DNA of 54,384 nucleotides from an uncultured Burkholderiales bacterium (lineage in GTDB: Bacteria > Pseudomonadota > Gammaproteobacteria > Burkholderiales > Casimicrobiaceae): assembly GCA_937944385.1 (NCBI GenBank), contig CALDYQ010000051.1:1-54384 (forward strand). Reading direction: 5' to 3'. This document shows, one piece after another, positions 5,036 to 10,218 of this stretch. A program made the translations under genes and the position numbers. Below the pieces are notes generated by a model. That model had not been told where the DNA came from. It saw only the letters and a list, made by a program, of their open reading frames with translations, and did no database searches. Position 1 is the stretch's first letter; every line of letters begins with the position of its first letter.

Positions 5036-5288
5036 ACCCGATCTATGCGGGTCTCACGCCGCATCGAACGACGGTCCTTCTGATCGACTCCCGCACGAAC
5101 GGCGCGGAAGCGCGGCCGACGCCATCTCGCGCAGTATCGGTTAGGGCTGATTTTTTGTGACACCGTCGCCACTACGATTGCGCTCGCATGCCACGGGGTG
5201 GCGGGCTGGCGCTGATTCGGTCCGGACATCCTCCGCTCCGGGGGTAGGCCACGCCGAACTGGATGATGCGACGGGCAGGACGTCCCCG

Positions 5289-6830
5289 TCAGTCGGACCA
5301 TGAGCCAACAGGAGGCAGCGAGCCGGCTCCGGCGAGCACCAGCAGCAGCCGGATGACGCCGAGCATATCTGCTCGGCTTCGCGGATCGGCAGAGACGACG
5401 GCCATCGGTCCGCCGTAGCAGCGTCGGACTGCCGCGCGGAAGGCGTCTAGCGACGGCGTAAACTCACACACGCGATTGAGTGCAACGACGACCGGAACGC
5501 CTGGAGCGCGGACTCGGATGAGTGAGAACCAGTGGGACAAACCATCGATTGGCTTCTCGGCGCTCGCATCGACGAGCACGATAGCGCCGTGCGCGCCCTG
5601 TAACAAGGTCTCGGCCACCATCCGAAAGCGCTCCTGTCCGGGCGCGCTGTAGATGAAGATCGGTTCACCCTGCGCATGAAGAACGCCAAAGTCGAAACCG
5701 ATGGTCGTGTCGGATTTGACCTGTCGCTCGCCCTCATTCTGAATGGCGACGTCCATGGTCATTGCCGCCGCCTCGAGGAGCGTTTTCAGGGCGGTGGTCT
5801 TGCCCGATCCGAAATCGCCGCAGATGACGAGTTTGTTCTCGACGGTCCTCGCCCGTGGCGCGGGTGCGGTCTTCTGGCTCGCGGATACGGACGCCCCCGC
5901 GCGGGGCGCAAGACCGAGCAAGCGCGCAAGTGCACGCATGGCTTGCGGCAAAGCGGAGGCGACGCTCTCCGGCCGCGGCACGGCTTGGGCCTCGTCCGGG
6001 GTTGCCAGGGGCAGACGCCGGACCATGGTGCCGCTCGCGAGTCCACAGACGACAAGCGCGCGCGCGAGGTCGCCCGCGCTCGCGCGCGTGCTTTCGACGT
6101 AGGCGCCGACCGTTGAACGCTTCTCTTGTGGCCAGAGCGCAGCGAGCGCCGAGGAATGCGCGAGCACGCCGACCACATCCGGGAAGTCGCAGATTTCTAC
6201 CCAGATTCCATCTGGCACCACGAACCGGTCCCGATGACGCAGGCAGATGGCAAAGCTCAAGGCCTCGAGCGACTGCCATGAGGACCAAGCTTCCTCTGTG
6301 TTCGCCTCGGAGACGTGCGCTGACGCGACCCACTCGCCACCGGCTTCACGGGCCAGCGTCGTGAGATCGACATTGCTTCGAAACCAAGGCTCTCGACCAA
6401 ACTCCACGACGATTCCCGACGCCGGCTTGACCAGGCGCTTTCCGACATGCGCCCTCGCCAGGCAACGGGCGAGCACGTGCTCGAGCAGCCCTGTCACCGG
6501 AACGCGGCCGCCGAATCCGCCGATCGTGATCCCGGAGGATGCGAGCGAAGAGGCAAGCGATTTGCAGAATTCGCCAAAAAGACGCGGTATCGCCAGTCGT
6601 TGGAAATTCAACGCGCCGAGCGAAACGACCGGAATTGCGCGTGCAGAGGCGAACCGGCGCGCCTGCGCCGCGAGGACATCGCCCTCGGCGCATAGCAAGG
6701 CTGCGCAGTCGAAGCGCCCATGCCATGAACGCAGCGAGATGCCGGAGCTTTCCGCCAGTGCGGTGAAATCCGGCAGGCTTAGCTGATTGCGAAGACCTGC
6801 CGGCAAGCCGACATGACGCACGACACGCAC
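5289..6830 (-). CDS. Large protein with C-terminal Ras/CvnD-like small GTPase domain
   Basis: This 513-aa protein has a novel layout. Residues 1-330 match no family I recognise; an Ala/Pro/Arg linker (about 310-330) leads to a P-loop GTPase domain at about 332-505. Visible G motifs are Walker A GDFGSGKTT (338-346), switch I DTTIGFDFG (374-382), and G3 SAPGQERFR (395-403), in which Ser replaces the usual Asp as Thr does in MglA. G4 is ALNRVCE (450-456), lacking the canonical NKxD Asp. The pattern resembles CvnD/COG2229 GTPases of actinobacterial conservons. GTG 6830 is chosen because GAGGGG overlapping the BLUF stop provides a ribosome site. It is the last gene of the BLUF/roadblock block. Confidence 0.85.
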   Translation of the reverse strand: MRVVRHVGLPAGLRNQLSLPDFTALAESSGISLRSWHGRFDCAALLCAEGDVLAAQARRFASARAIPVVSLGALNFQRLAIPRLFGEFCKSLASSLASSGITIGGFGGRVPVTGLLEHVLARCLARAHVGKRLVKPASGIVVEFGREPWFRSNVDLTTLAREAGGEWVASAHVSEANTEEAWSSWQSLEALSFAICLRHRDRFVVPDGIWVEICDFPDVVGVLAHSSALAALWPQEKRSTVGAYVESTRASAGDLARALVVCGLASGTMVRRLPLATPDEAQAVPRPESVASALPQAMRALARLLGLAPRAGASVSASQKTAPAPRARTVENKLVICGDFGSGKTTALKTLLEAAAMTMDVAIQNEGERQVKSDTTIGFDFGVLHAQGEPIFIYSAPGQERFRMVAETLLQGAHGAIVLVDASAEKPIDGLSHWFSLIRVRAPGVPVVVALNRVCEFTPSLDAFRAAVRRCYGGPMAVVSADPRSRADMLGVIRLLLVLAGAGSLPPVGSWSD

Positions 6831-6840
6831 GACAACCCCC

Positions 6841-7266
6841 TCAGCCTGCGAGCGTACGCGTCGGTACGACGGTGAGAAGCAGGCGCTCGACGATTTCGGA
6901 ATCAAGCGTCAAAGGGTCGAATCCCGTGCGGGAAAGCCCGAAAGCCTCGGCCTGTTCGGCGAGGGACTGCATCGGTGCGTAGGCCATCGACCATTCGGCC
7001 CAGAAGCGAACATGCGTCCGGGCGTAGCCGAGAAGTCGCGGATCAGAATGCCGTTTGTCCTGGACAATAAAACAGTAAAGACGGTTGACAGCTTCCGTGT
7101 CCCCCTCGAGCGCCTGAACGAAGTGATTGCTGCCCACGACGAGGAGGCCAGTGATCCCAAGCCTTGGGTTGTTGCGCTGGGCGCTCGCGACAATGGCGCG
7201 CGCATGATTCGGCGCGTGATCGACTGCCCGGCTCGCGTAGATTAAGCGGACGAGGTTCTCGCTCAT
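6841..7266 (-). CDS. BLUF-domain blue-light photoreceptor
   Basis: This 141-aa stand-alone BLUF protein should bind FAD and change the flavin hydrogen-bond network on blue-light excitation. All expected photocycle residues are present: Tyr10 (LIYASR), Asn33 (RNNPRLGITGLL), Gln51 (HFVQALEG), and Trp92 and Met94 (EWSMAY). After the about 95-residue domain there is a roughly 45-residue tail with no recognised output domain, so signalling is presumably by protein contact. Its ATG overlaps the stop of the roadblock gene by 4 nt, and its stop lies 10 nt before the GTPase-protein start. This tight packing makes the GTPase or roadblock proteins its likely partners (inference). Confidence 0.93.
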   Translation of the reverse strand: MSENLVRLIYASRAVDHAPNHARAIVASAQRNNPRLGITGLLVVGSNHFVQALEGDTEAVNRLYCFIVQDKRHSDPRLLGYARTHVRFWAEWSMAYAPMQSLAEQAEAFGLSRTGFDPLTLDSEIVERLLLTVVPTRTLAG

Positions 7267-7661
7267 CGTTCGACCTCAGGCAGCTCCTCGACGAGTTGCG
7301 TGAGTTGGCTCGCAAGGCGCCGTGAATTCGACAGCAAAATACCTTGCGGGCAACTCACATCCGTCACGATCAAGAGTCCGTAGCGACTGGAGATGGTTCG
7401 CATCGACAACTCCCCGCCATCGGTCGTAAGCAAAACCTCGGCGCACGACTGACCTCCGATCTCGCGCGCTGCGCTACCCGTGATTGAGAGAATGGTTGCA
7501 GTGATTGCGGAGAGCCGATCGAAGTCGAGCGGCTGGGCCTGAGCGACGCCGACCACCGTCCGCCCGTCGAGTGTGCAGACAAGGCCACCACGCGCGCGGC
7601 GGGTCTGATCGATCGCCGCGCGCAGATGCTTGGCCATGGCAGTCCGCAACTCCTCTTTCAT
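7263..7661 (-). CDS. Roadblock/LC7-domain protein (MglB/CvnB-like)
   Basis: This 132-aa protein has the single-domain size of roadblock/LC7 proteins that bind and regulate small GTPases (MglB on MglA, CvnB on CvnD). The pattern is visible as an amphipathic N-terminal helix, ARGGLVCTLDGRTVVGVA, a long helix DFDRLSAITATILSITGSAAR, then strands AEVLLTTDGGELSMRTI and YGLLIVTDVSCPQGILLSNSRR. It is translationally coupled to the BLUF gene (ATGA overlap). The ribosome-binding site is poor: a run of seven C directly precedes the ATG. A 208-nt spacer separates it from the second roadblock-like gene upstream. Confidence 0.85.
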   Translation of the reverse strand: MKEELRTAMAKHLRAAIDQTRRARGGLVCTLDGRTVVGVAQAQPLDFDRLSAITATILSITGSAAREIGGQSCAEVLLTTDGGELSMRTISSRYGLLIVTDVSCPQGILLSNSRRLASQLTQLVEELPEVER

Positions 7662-7869
7662 GGGGGGGCACTCGATGCAACAAGGAGGGGGTCATTGATG
7701 GGATTCGACGGGCCAAGGTCTTCGTATTCGGACCGCCCGTCATCCAACTCGAGAGCAGTGACCCGTCCAAAGCAAGCGACGTGCTGGCCGGTCCGCATGG
7801 GCTTTCATCGAAAGTGCCGCCTACAACGCTCAAAGCGGCCGAGGCGAGCCCGTCGAGTACGTCATTTGG

Positions 7870-8268
7870 CTAGACCATGGCCTCGAGGGACGGGCAAGCC
7901 AGTCGGGCTTTCGAAAGCGCCATCCCGATGTTTGCACTATTACGACAGACGAAGACCGCGACTGCGTTTTGCTTTTTTGGTAACCGCAGGAAGACGTGAA
8001 TCAGGTTCGCGCTGTAGACGATGATTTCCCGGAAGTAATGCTCGGCGGAAGCCGTGCCTCGCGCGGCCTTGAAGTGGTTTTCGATGGCGACGACGTTAGG
8101 GCCCTGAAACAGATCGGCGGTCGCCGCAGCGACCAGGTCGAGTACAGCCGCCGGATGGGAGTCCACCGTCTTGACATCGAGCAGTAGACCGCTGTCGACA
8201 TCGACGAGGCCGACCGCAACACATTCCGGGACCATGGCTTGAGCGTCATTGAGCGCTTTGGAGGGCAT
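7870..8268 (-). CDS. Second roadblock/LC7-like protein
   Basis: This 132-aa protein is the same length as the neighbouring roadblock protein and has the same alternation: an N-terminal helix, CVAVGLVDVDSGLLLDVKTV, a helix PAAVLDLVAAATADLFQG, then strands FREIIVYSANLIHVFLRL and NAVAVFVCRNSANIG, and a terminal helix. It is divergent in sequence and I assign it by fold pattern only. ATG 8268 is preceded by AGAAAGG at good spacing; an in-frame TTG at 8274 is less likely. Base composition here looks more AT-rich than the flanking genes, suggesting acquisition by transfer. Confidence 0.65.
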   Translation of the reverse strand: MPSKALNDAQAMVPECVAVGLVDVDSGLLLDVKTVDSHPAAVLDLVAAATADLFQGPNVVAIENHFKAARGTASAEHYFREIIVYSANLIHVFLRLPKKQNAVAVFVCRNSANIGMALSKARLACPSLEAMV

Positions 8269-8536
8269 GTTCAAAAACCTTTCTTGGTTGGGGGTTGGCG
8301 GAACGAACGGCGACCCGTTCCTCTATTCGTTCATGCGCAATGCAAGATCCGTACAAAAAATACGCGGCGATTGTGACTCCCGTACTACTCAAGCTGACCG
8401 AAGCACGATGTTTGCGCGCTCGAAGGCTGTGCGGCGCGTCGAGCCGCCCGGCCGACCCATCGGGCTCGACGAAGACCGCCCATGTTCCAAAGCCGCTGGC
8501 ACGCACGACTCCGGCCTCGAAGGCAATGACGTTCAC
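8246..8536 (-). CDS. Possible remnant of a small gene upstream of the roadblock genes
   Basis: This 96-codon frame opens with GTG 8536 and overlaps the second roadblock-like gene by 23 nt. About the first 40 codons have GC-rich third positions typical of real genes here (VNVIAFEAGVVRASGFGTW, then FVEPDGSAGR), while the later part does not. It has no clear ribosome-binding site of its own. Together with the well-initiated ORF at 8594 in another frame, it suggests one gene split by a frameshift. No family is recognised. Confidence 0.3.
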   Translation of the reverse strand: MNVIAFEAGVVRASGFGTWAVFVEPDGSAGRLDAPHSLRARKHRASVSLSSTGVTIAAYFLYGSCIAHERIEERVAVRSANPQPRKVFEHALQSAQ

Positions 8537-8594
8537 CCCTCGCCGCTGAATTCACGTTGCTCACAACCACTCGTGGGCTCGCGGGCATCTTCAT
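8385..8594 (-). CDS. Doubtful small ORF with strong ribosome-binding site
   Basis: A 69-aa frame starts at ATG 8594 behind an unusually good AAGGAGGGA. Its first residues MKMPASPRVVVSNVNSAARG look acceptable, but the remainder is Arg-rich and resembles out-of-frame high-GC sequence. The neighbouring frame (8246-8536) has more protein-like codon use over the same stretch. The simplest reading is that translation starts here but the downstream coding frame was lost by a frameshift around the GGGG run near 8537. It precedes the roadblock genes and may once have been the first gene of that block. Confidence 0.3.
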   Translation of the reverse strand: MKMPASPRVVVSNVNSAARGERHCLRGRSRACQRLWNMGGLRRARWVGRAARRAAQPSSAQTSCFGQLE

Positions 8595-8673
8595 TTGTCC
8601 CTCCTTGCCACGCTCTCCGGCCCTCGAAAAACTGCAAACATGCCGGGTCATCGCGTTTTGCGTTGGATGATCA

Positions 8674-8694
8674 GGATTAATCTCAGTCTAATCC
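8674..8694. promoter_or_regulatory. Inverted repeat GGATTA-N9-TAATCC, possible operator
   Basis: Perfect 6-bp arms (8674-8679 and 8689-8694) flank a 9-nt spacer, giving the 21-bp dyad spacing usual for a dimeric regulator. It lies about 80 bp upstream of the ATG at 8594, where the promoter of the minus-strand BLUF/roadblock block is expected. No regulator gene is adjacent. The role is inferred from position only. Confidence 0.35.
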
Positions 8695-8930
8695 CATCAA
8701 CCGCTTCCCCGCAAGGACGTCAGCAGTGCGGGTATTCCTCGCGGCTCAGCATCCGCGACAACGCATCGTTCGTCGCCACCGTCGTCGCGTCGTCGGACGC
8801 GCCCAGTGGCTCAGTTGGGGGGGTTTGAGCCAGGCGCGCCCGCATGCCATCCGCCGTGCCGCGACAAAGCGGCCGGAGGGCTGCCTAGGCGAGGCGCCTC
8901 AGTACGGTGCTTGGGCACGGTGTCTGAGCA

Positions 8931-8951
8931 GGATGCCCAAAAGAGGCATCC
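8931..8951. terminator. Hairpin GGATGCC-N7-GGCATCC downstream of the ABC/phosphatase gene
   Basis: A perfect 7-bp stem with a 7-nt loop begins 9 nt after the stop of the ABC/phosphatase gene. There is no T-run after it, so it could be a weak terminator or a 3'-end stabilising structure rather than a strong intrinsic terminator. Confidence 0.35.
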
Positions 8952-8960
8952 ACGCGGCGC

Positions 8961-10193
8961 TTACAACTCGCTCAAAAACTGCCACTGCGCCTCGGATTGC
9001 ACGAACAGCGGCTGCAGTCGCCGAATTCGCTCGAGCGCAGCCAACGGCCTGGTGCCATCGATGCGCGCAACCAGTGCAGCAAGCATGAGACCGGTGCGTC
9101 CCAGCCCGGCCTTGCAGTGCACCACGATGCATTCACCCCGGTCGTGGGCAAGCAACAGCTCATCGAGCACTCGACTGAATGCCAATCTGTCCGGCGGTAC
9201 GCCCATGTCCGGCATCGGCAGATGCACGAGCCGAATGCCGAAGCGCGCAACGTCCTCGCGCGGATACCCCAGTGTCTCTTCGAGATTGACCAGATGCCGC
9301 ACACCATGCGCTGCGAGCGTAGACAGGGAAAGATCGAGCGCTTCGAGTAAACCGGGGCGTGGCATGCCGCCCAGGCTTCGTGGCTTGACCCAGACGAGGT
9401 GCGAGGGCGCACGGAAACGTAAACCCAGCGGTCGGTCGGGGTCATGCCCGACGAGCGGCAGGAGCGTCGCTGGGAGATCGGCCGGGCGCGGTCCGAGCAG
9501 CCAGCTTTGCGCCTTGGTCTCCGACACATGGCGCGCATCATGGGTCGCCAGAACGACGATCCGCGATTGCGCGAACTGCACGAGCGCATCGAATAGCAAC
9601 TTCTGAACGTGCGGGGAGCAATGAGCAGTCAGCTCATCGGCGAGGAGTGCGGGTGGCGACCGAAGAATCGCACGGGCAAGAGCCAAGACCTGCCGAAGTT
9701 CCATCGGCAAGCGAAAAACCGGCTCCAGCCAGATTTCACCCACCAGGTCGGCCAGATTGAAGCGGGCGAGCTGATCGAGGATGACGGTGCGTTGCTCACT
9801 CATCAGGACCGACCCGCGCTCGCTTTGGGTACCAGCGAGTTCGTCACACACCCGCGCGCCGGAACTGCTGGTTCGCTGATGGATGAGCTCGGGCAAACGC
9901 TCGTCTCCGAGGCGTCGACCGTCGGCGCTCCAGTCGCCCCAAACACGCAGAGCGCTTTGATGTCGCTGCGCACCAGCGAGCACTTTGAGCAAGGTGCTCT
10001 TGCCCGCGCCGCCCGCGCCGTAGACGAGATGAAGCGCGCCGCTCTGCCAATCGAAGGACAAGCCTTCGAATGCCACGTGCTCATTGAAGGCCGCACCGCC
10101 GCGCCGCACGCTGAGCCGCCGAATCGGCCCAAGGGTGTGCACCTCACGCGCTCCTGCCTGCACGGATGGGGACATCGGGATACTCTCGTCCAC
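8961..10193 (-). CDS. ABC ATPase domain fused to a dual-specificity protein phosphatase
   Basis: This 410-aa cytosolic protein combines two enzymes. Residues about 22-235 form an ABC-type ATPase: Walker A GAGGAGKST (59-67), a Q-loop candidate Gln106, a degenerate signature LPMELRQ (162-168) in place of LSGGQ, Walker B LLADE (183-187) and a switch His218 (ATHDARH). Residues about 265-410 form a dual-specificity phosphatase of the CDKN3/PTP type, with candidate general acid Asp329 (LPMPDMGVP) and the P-loop HCKAGLGRTG (Cys360, Arg366). There are no membrane segments and no permease gene nearby. GTG 10193 is preferred for its GGGGGGAAG site; ATG 10175 is the alternative. I know of no described protein with this pairing. 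Confidence 0.85.
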   Translation of the reverse strand: MDESIPMSPSVQAGAREVHTLGPIRRLSVRRGGAAFNEHVAFEGLSFDWQSGALHLVYGAGGAGKSTLLKVLAGAQRHQSALRVWGDWSADGRRLGDERLPELIHQRTSSSGARVCDELAGTQSERGSVLMSEQRTVILDQLARFNLADLVGEIWLEPVFRLPMELRQVLALARAILRSPPALLADELTAHCSPHVQKLLFDALVQFAQSRIVVLATHDARHVSETKAQSWLLGPRPADLPATLLPLVGHDPDRPLGLRFRAPSHLVWVKPRSLGGMPRPGLLEALDLSLSTLAAHGVRHLVNLEETLGYPREDVARFGIRLVHLPMPDMGVPPDRLAFSRVLDELLLAHDRGECIVVHCKAGLGRTGLMLAALVARIDGTRPLAALERIRRLQPLFVQSEAQWQFLSEL

Positions 10194-10218
10194 GTTGTGC
10201 AGCTTCCCCCCGCCCGCT

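Follow-up and report, generated by a model that had tools for sequence, protein, structure and literature searches.

A BLUF photoreceptor gene inside a Ras-like GTPase/roadblock cassette: a putative light input to bacterial GTPase signalling

Little is known about the signals that feed into bacterial Ras-like GTPase/roadblock systems, and a block of four minus-strand genes from an uncultured Burkholderiales bacterium of the Casimicrobiaceae raises the question whether light could be one of them. The block lies in contig CALDYQ010000051.1, of which the whole stretch analysed (54,384 nucleotides) is hereafter called the window. A photoreceptor input would be a signal that can be switched at will, making the path from sensor through roadblock protein to GTPase accessible to dissection in vitro. 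The preliminary description of this DNA had listed two roadblock proteins, a stand-alone BLUF protein and a protein with a C-terminal GTPase domain in four successive genes, and all four reading frames are indeed open, with the boundaries given in Table 1. The tight packing that it reported for three of these genes is also found: robl1 and the BLUF gene overlap by 4 nt (7263-7266), and 10 nt separate BLUF from the GTG start of the GTPase gene (6841/6830). The BLUF gene is interior, between robl1 and the GTPase gene, and 208 nt lie between rob0 and robl1. No promoter-like sites were found in the block, by a scan that is a weak test in a genome of 66% GC.

Table 1. Features of the GTPase/roadblock block in the window and of the related PAS-LOV genes in congeners
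Feature	Position	Strand	Basis
Rob0, second roadblock-fold protein, 132 aa	7870..8268	-	second-family profile and AlphaFold model
Robl1, roadblock/LC7 protein, MglB-like, 132 aa	7263..7661	-	Pfam PF03259 and cassette Robl profile
Stand-alone BLUF protein, putative blue-light receptor, PixD-like, 141 aa	6841..7266	-	Pfam, PixD match, photocycle residues
Ras-like GTPase domain, COG2229/MglA type, residues ~324-513	5289..5861	-	profiles, model, motifs
N-terminal part of the 513-aa GTPase protein, residues 1-323	5862..6830	-	coding-like GC3
Insertion between mog and the COX15 side, approximate extent	5036..10218	.	congener gene order, low GC/GC3
PAS-LOV gene, cassette head in three congeners	L026:9217-9981, L027:2231-3028, L029:2315-3313	-	

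The BLUF protein matches its Pfam family (PF04940) with an E-value of 2.7e-24 and 85.5 bits, against a curated cut-off of 25, and its nearest solved relative is PixD (Slr1694) of Synechocystis (E 5e-19, over residues 4-121). In BLUF domains a Tyr and a Gln take part in the photocycle and an Asn contacts the flavin. The residues previously noted as intact, Tyr10, Asn33, Gln51 and Met94, are all present. Three further BLUF proteins (L036, L037, L038) are encoded in the same genome, away from roadblock genes.

Both 132-aa proteins had been named roadblock proteins. Robl1 matches Robl_LC7 (PF03259, E 8.9e-7, 29 bits against a cut-off of 23) and also the Robl profile of the cassettes described below (50 bits, E 2e-14). 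Rob0 has no match in Pfam, Robl_LC7 included, at E<=1, and is recognised by the profile of a second roadblock family built from cassettes of other genomes (73.6 bits, E 1.4e-21); none of 1000 shuffled Rob0 controls scored as high, the maximum being 6.1 bits. This family, usually encoded by the last gene of the cassette, can be aligned with the Robl profile by hhalign (probability 80%, E 1e-5), and the nearest Rob0 relatives found, from Ghiorsea, are 34% identical. Structure modelling, proposed earlier as a check, places Rob0 in the roadblock fold, since the best PDB matches of its AlphaFold model (pLDDT 86.1) are MglB structures (Foldseek E 3.8e-7, TM ~0.6-0.7). Given the profile match, the hhalign link and the MglB-like model, both names are right, and Rob0 is a protein of the roadblock superfamily.

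The C-terminal GTPase of the 513-aa protein is confirmed as a Ras-superfamily domain (residues ~330-500), with Roc and Ras matching above their cut-offs. It is modelled at a pLDDT of ~90, its structure matches Rab/Arf GTPases, and it carries a P-loop, GDFGSGKTT, at residue 338 and a PGQ switch motif, YSAPGQ (in YSAPGQERF), at residue 394. The canonical G4 motif NKxD is not present in this GTPase, which has ALNRVCEF there instead; G4 is degenerate in several cassette relatives too. A profile of its relatives also matches MglA. In the GTPase tree it forms a very long branch (3.19). The model of the N-terminal ~325 residues is of low confidence, and GC3 is coding-like throughout the 513-aa frame, this part included.

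The reasoning that GTPase and roadblock genes belong together is borne out by other genomes, since in several phyla these families are found together in a conserved cassette. Among the matches listed, the order regulator-GTPase-Robl-Rob2 recurs in Comamonadaceae, Lysobacteraceae, Microbacteriaceae and others, and the cassette is found in gamma- and zetaproteobacteria and in Actinomycetota (GTDB). The GTPase relatives, both within the same family and order and in the GTDB genomes of these lineages (among the matches listed), mostly adjoin a regulator and a Robl gene, often with a second roadblock protein. The regulators upstream of the GTPase relatives form one coherent family (66 of ~70 upstream ORFs). 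In the window the GTPase, Robl and Rob2 families are encoded together as in the cassette, but the order differs, with BLUF inside and an N-terminal part on the GTPase, and the block contains no separate regulator gene. The widespread cassette is thus present here in a divergent and rearranged form. The N-terminal part may be the counterpart of the regulator that other cassettes encode as a gene of its own; its comparison with 66 cassette regulators (hhalign, HMM) did not rise above shuffles, and only against regulators from the same bacterial family did a borderline similarity appear, to the regulator C-termini, which 6 of 1845 scored shuffles equalled.

Other long frames were seen at related loci. 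At L127 (2440-3945, minus strand), and also at L134 and L031, a Ser/Thr protein kinase is fused to a Ras-like GTPase; these ORFs were rejected as examples of the fusion seen in the 513-aa protein because their N-termini are kinases. In many related cassettes (L103-L123) the regulator is immediately preceded by an ORF of ~500 aa, and such an ORF is FimV/TPR-like by eye in L033 and has no Pfam match in L123. In Comamonadaceae (L069, L120, L124), the long ORFs that follow Rob2 were judged to be spurious frames, having no Pfam match and being mutually unrelated.

The block had also been described as AT-rich and possibly transferred, and both points are supported. Of all 1.5-kb stretches in the window, the one at 7.25-8.75 kb has the lowest GC (60.0%; window mean 65.9%, SD 2.0), and GC3 is 0.71-0.73 in the block genes versus 0.81-0.86 in neighbouring genes, with BLUF (0.711) close to other block genes (0.707 and 0.73). 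In several congeners mog and COX15 are 140-700 bp apart, and compared with these the window has ~5.2 kb extra between the two genes, the right edge being only approximate. The block forms an insertion of low GC at this place. This insertion and the low GC and GC3 support horizontal acquisition, and the block was likely transferred as one unit. A plasmid search returned only weak GTPase matches, from Deinococcus and Streptomyces. The same insertion contains a gene (8961-10193, minus strand) for a 410-aa protein in which an ABC-type ATPase is fused to a dual-specificity/tyrosine phosphatase domain, with a GC3 as low as that of the block.

The presence of BLUF beside roadblock genes is rare. Among 300 genomes of the order, BLUF occurs in 103 and roadblock in 30, and among 398 genomes of the phylum roadblock occurs in 52, of which 11 also have BLUF. 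The two are adjacent in the window only (386 bp between match starts); the other 17 genomes with both that were checked keep them at a distance of at least 11 kb, and unrelated genes separate the closest pair. A BLUF gene considered as a member of a roadblock operon in genome G478 was rejected, being 11 kb away with other genes between. The search for conserved co-occurrence suggested in the preliminary description did not support conservation of the BLUF version, which is unique among the 300 genomes of the order and the 52 roadblock-bearing genomes of the phylum. Likewise, a GTDB scan gave no second BLUF cassette among the matches listed, and rarer copies may exist. By rough arithmetic (4 BLUF genes in ~2,500), the probability that a BLUF gene falls by chance into a particular cassette of four genes, or next to it, is <1%, but this window was picked for its BLUF.

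A second photoreceptor was found at such cassettes, and this observation is free of the BLUF-based selection because it was made after the window was picked. In three congeners (G001, G006, G014) a PAS-LOV gene lies directly upstream of regulator-GTPase-Robl-Rob2. Its product has an intact photoactive cysteine motif, G[RK]NCRFLQG, and a LOV domain for which matches to the YtvA family (4e-36) and to phototropin LOV (1e-27) were obtained. Among 51 genomes searched, full-length PAS-LOV is present only in these three, each copy being at the cassette, with 47-83% identity among them. The three LOV cases probably share descent and are therefore taken as a single pairing, with BLUF as the other. In the GTPase tree the window protein does not group with the GTPases of the LOV cassettes, a placement that its long branch makes unsure. 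Of the six cassette-bearing genomes of the genus, four encode a flavin-based receptor for blue light at the cassette, three of them LOV and one BLUF, and ~80 other GTPase loci have neither BLUF nor LOV within the flanks read.

Further sensory genes are present at related cassettes. Stand-alone PAS protein genes adjoin a roadblock gene in L031, L127 and L134, a PAS-GGDEF-EAL gene is found at the cassette of L139, and ODP and protoglobin genes at those of G478 and L033. Together with the Ser/Thr kinases mentioned above, these genes support a GTPase/roadblock core that takes exchangeable sensory inputs, light among them. In G478 (L143:1328-8067, minus strand), an ODP diiron protein gene and two protoglobin-like genes are interleaved with the roadblock genes.

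From these data, we consider it somewhat probable that the block is a Ras-like GTPase sensory cassette with two roadblock partners and BLUF as its light input. The strongest support for light as the input is that two unrelated flavin photoreceptors are found at one type of cassette in one genus. BLUF might instead be a chance passenger that landed in a real GTPase/roadblock cassette with transferred DNA and has its partner elsewhere, as could be expected from a block that is an insertion, in a genome with three more BLUF proteins distant from roadblock genes, and from the lack of a second genome with BLUF in such a cassette. However, the interior position of the gene, its 4-nt overlap with robl1 and its matching GC3 speak against a stray gene, and so does the LOV receptor that the congeners have, independently, at a cassette of this kind, which makes a passenger rather unlikely.

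The oxygen, redox or energy inputs suggested by the PAS, ODP and protoglobin genes of other cassettes would agree with a BLUF protein that serves the GTPase cassette as a flavin or redox sensor, or as a mere scaffold, and not as a light switch. We find this improbable, as all four photocycle residues are present and the LOV protein of the congeners keeps its cysteine motif, blue light being the input common to BLUF and LOV. Finally, the very long GTPase branch and the lack of a separate regulator gene could indicate decaying or non-functional transferred DNA, with a divergent GTPase that no longer works, but the four open reading frames, the conserved P-loop and switch motifs, the coding-like GC3 across the 513-aa frame and the intact BLUF residues make such decay very improbable.

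What is shown directly is gene content and fold; for light control, contact between the proteins, the sense of the effect and its output, we propose the following for a cassette with BLUF as its light input. Blue light would alter the hydrogen bonding around the BLUF flavin, and BLUF would then bind or release a partner encoded next to it, which could be one of the roadblock proteins or the N-terminal portion of the GTPase protein. This change of partner would shift the GTP/GDP state of the GTPase, which in its GTP form would act on a downstream machine. By analogy with PixD-PixE and MglA, this output would most plausibly be cell polarity or type IV pili. The genome of the window has three pilT-family genes above the cut-off, and MglA is described as stimulating type IV pili in Myxococcus in work cited by PMC9090330. 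The two pairings suggest that light can feed directly into GTPase signalling in bacteria. That flavin photoreceptors, BLUF here and LOV in the congeners, were plugged at least twice into the GTPase/roadblock cassette as a natural light-gated switch is a proposition that we regard as evenly balanced; we found no paper on such a route, and no description in the open-licence literature of BLUF or LOV combined with roadblock, MglA, MglB or a small GTPase. If true, Ras-like GTPases would join the known outputs of BLUF and LOV, and the cassette would offer a natural template for optogenetic control of GTPases.

Among known systems, the MglA/MglB pair of Myxococcus and Thermus similarly consists of a Ras-superfamily GTPase encoded with a roadblock/LC7 partner; the Rob0 model is closest to MglB and the GTPase profile matches MglA. 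In that polarity system the roadblock protein is the GAP of the GTPase, with polar localisation. The window differs by its two roadblock families, the extra N-terminal part of its GTPase and the interior photoreceptor gene, and its GTPase, of the PGQ/COG2229 kind, has a sequence distant from that of MglA. The actinobacterial conservons (AGPS) also combine sensor, roadblock and GTPase in one operon; they comprise CvnA-D and the accessory GAF protein CvnF, and accessory sensory proteins feed the G-protein system (PMC13343842). Neither a CvnA-type histidine kinase nor CvnC is among the ORFs and Pfam matches of the block, and its input would be a BLUF protein, not a GAF protein or a kinase. As for the PixD-PixE system of Synechocystis, it shares with the window a short BLUF protein, PixD, the nearest solved relative, which signals by protein contact: PixD contacts PixE, a PATAN response regulator acting on PilB1, and thereby steers type IV pilus phototaxis (PMC7690835). 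In the block the neighbours of BLUF are roadblock proteins and a Ras-like GTPase, with no PATAN domain found among them. The PAS-LOV cassettes of the three congeners, for which we found no paper describing a PAS-LOV protein with a regulator-GTPase-roadblock cassette, differ from the window in having LOV in place of BLUF, a separate regulator gene, another gene order and GTPases that are not closely related to that of the window (33-36% identity), and they share with it, in the same genus, a gene for a blue-light flavoprotein that adjoins members of these GTPase and roadblock families.
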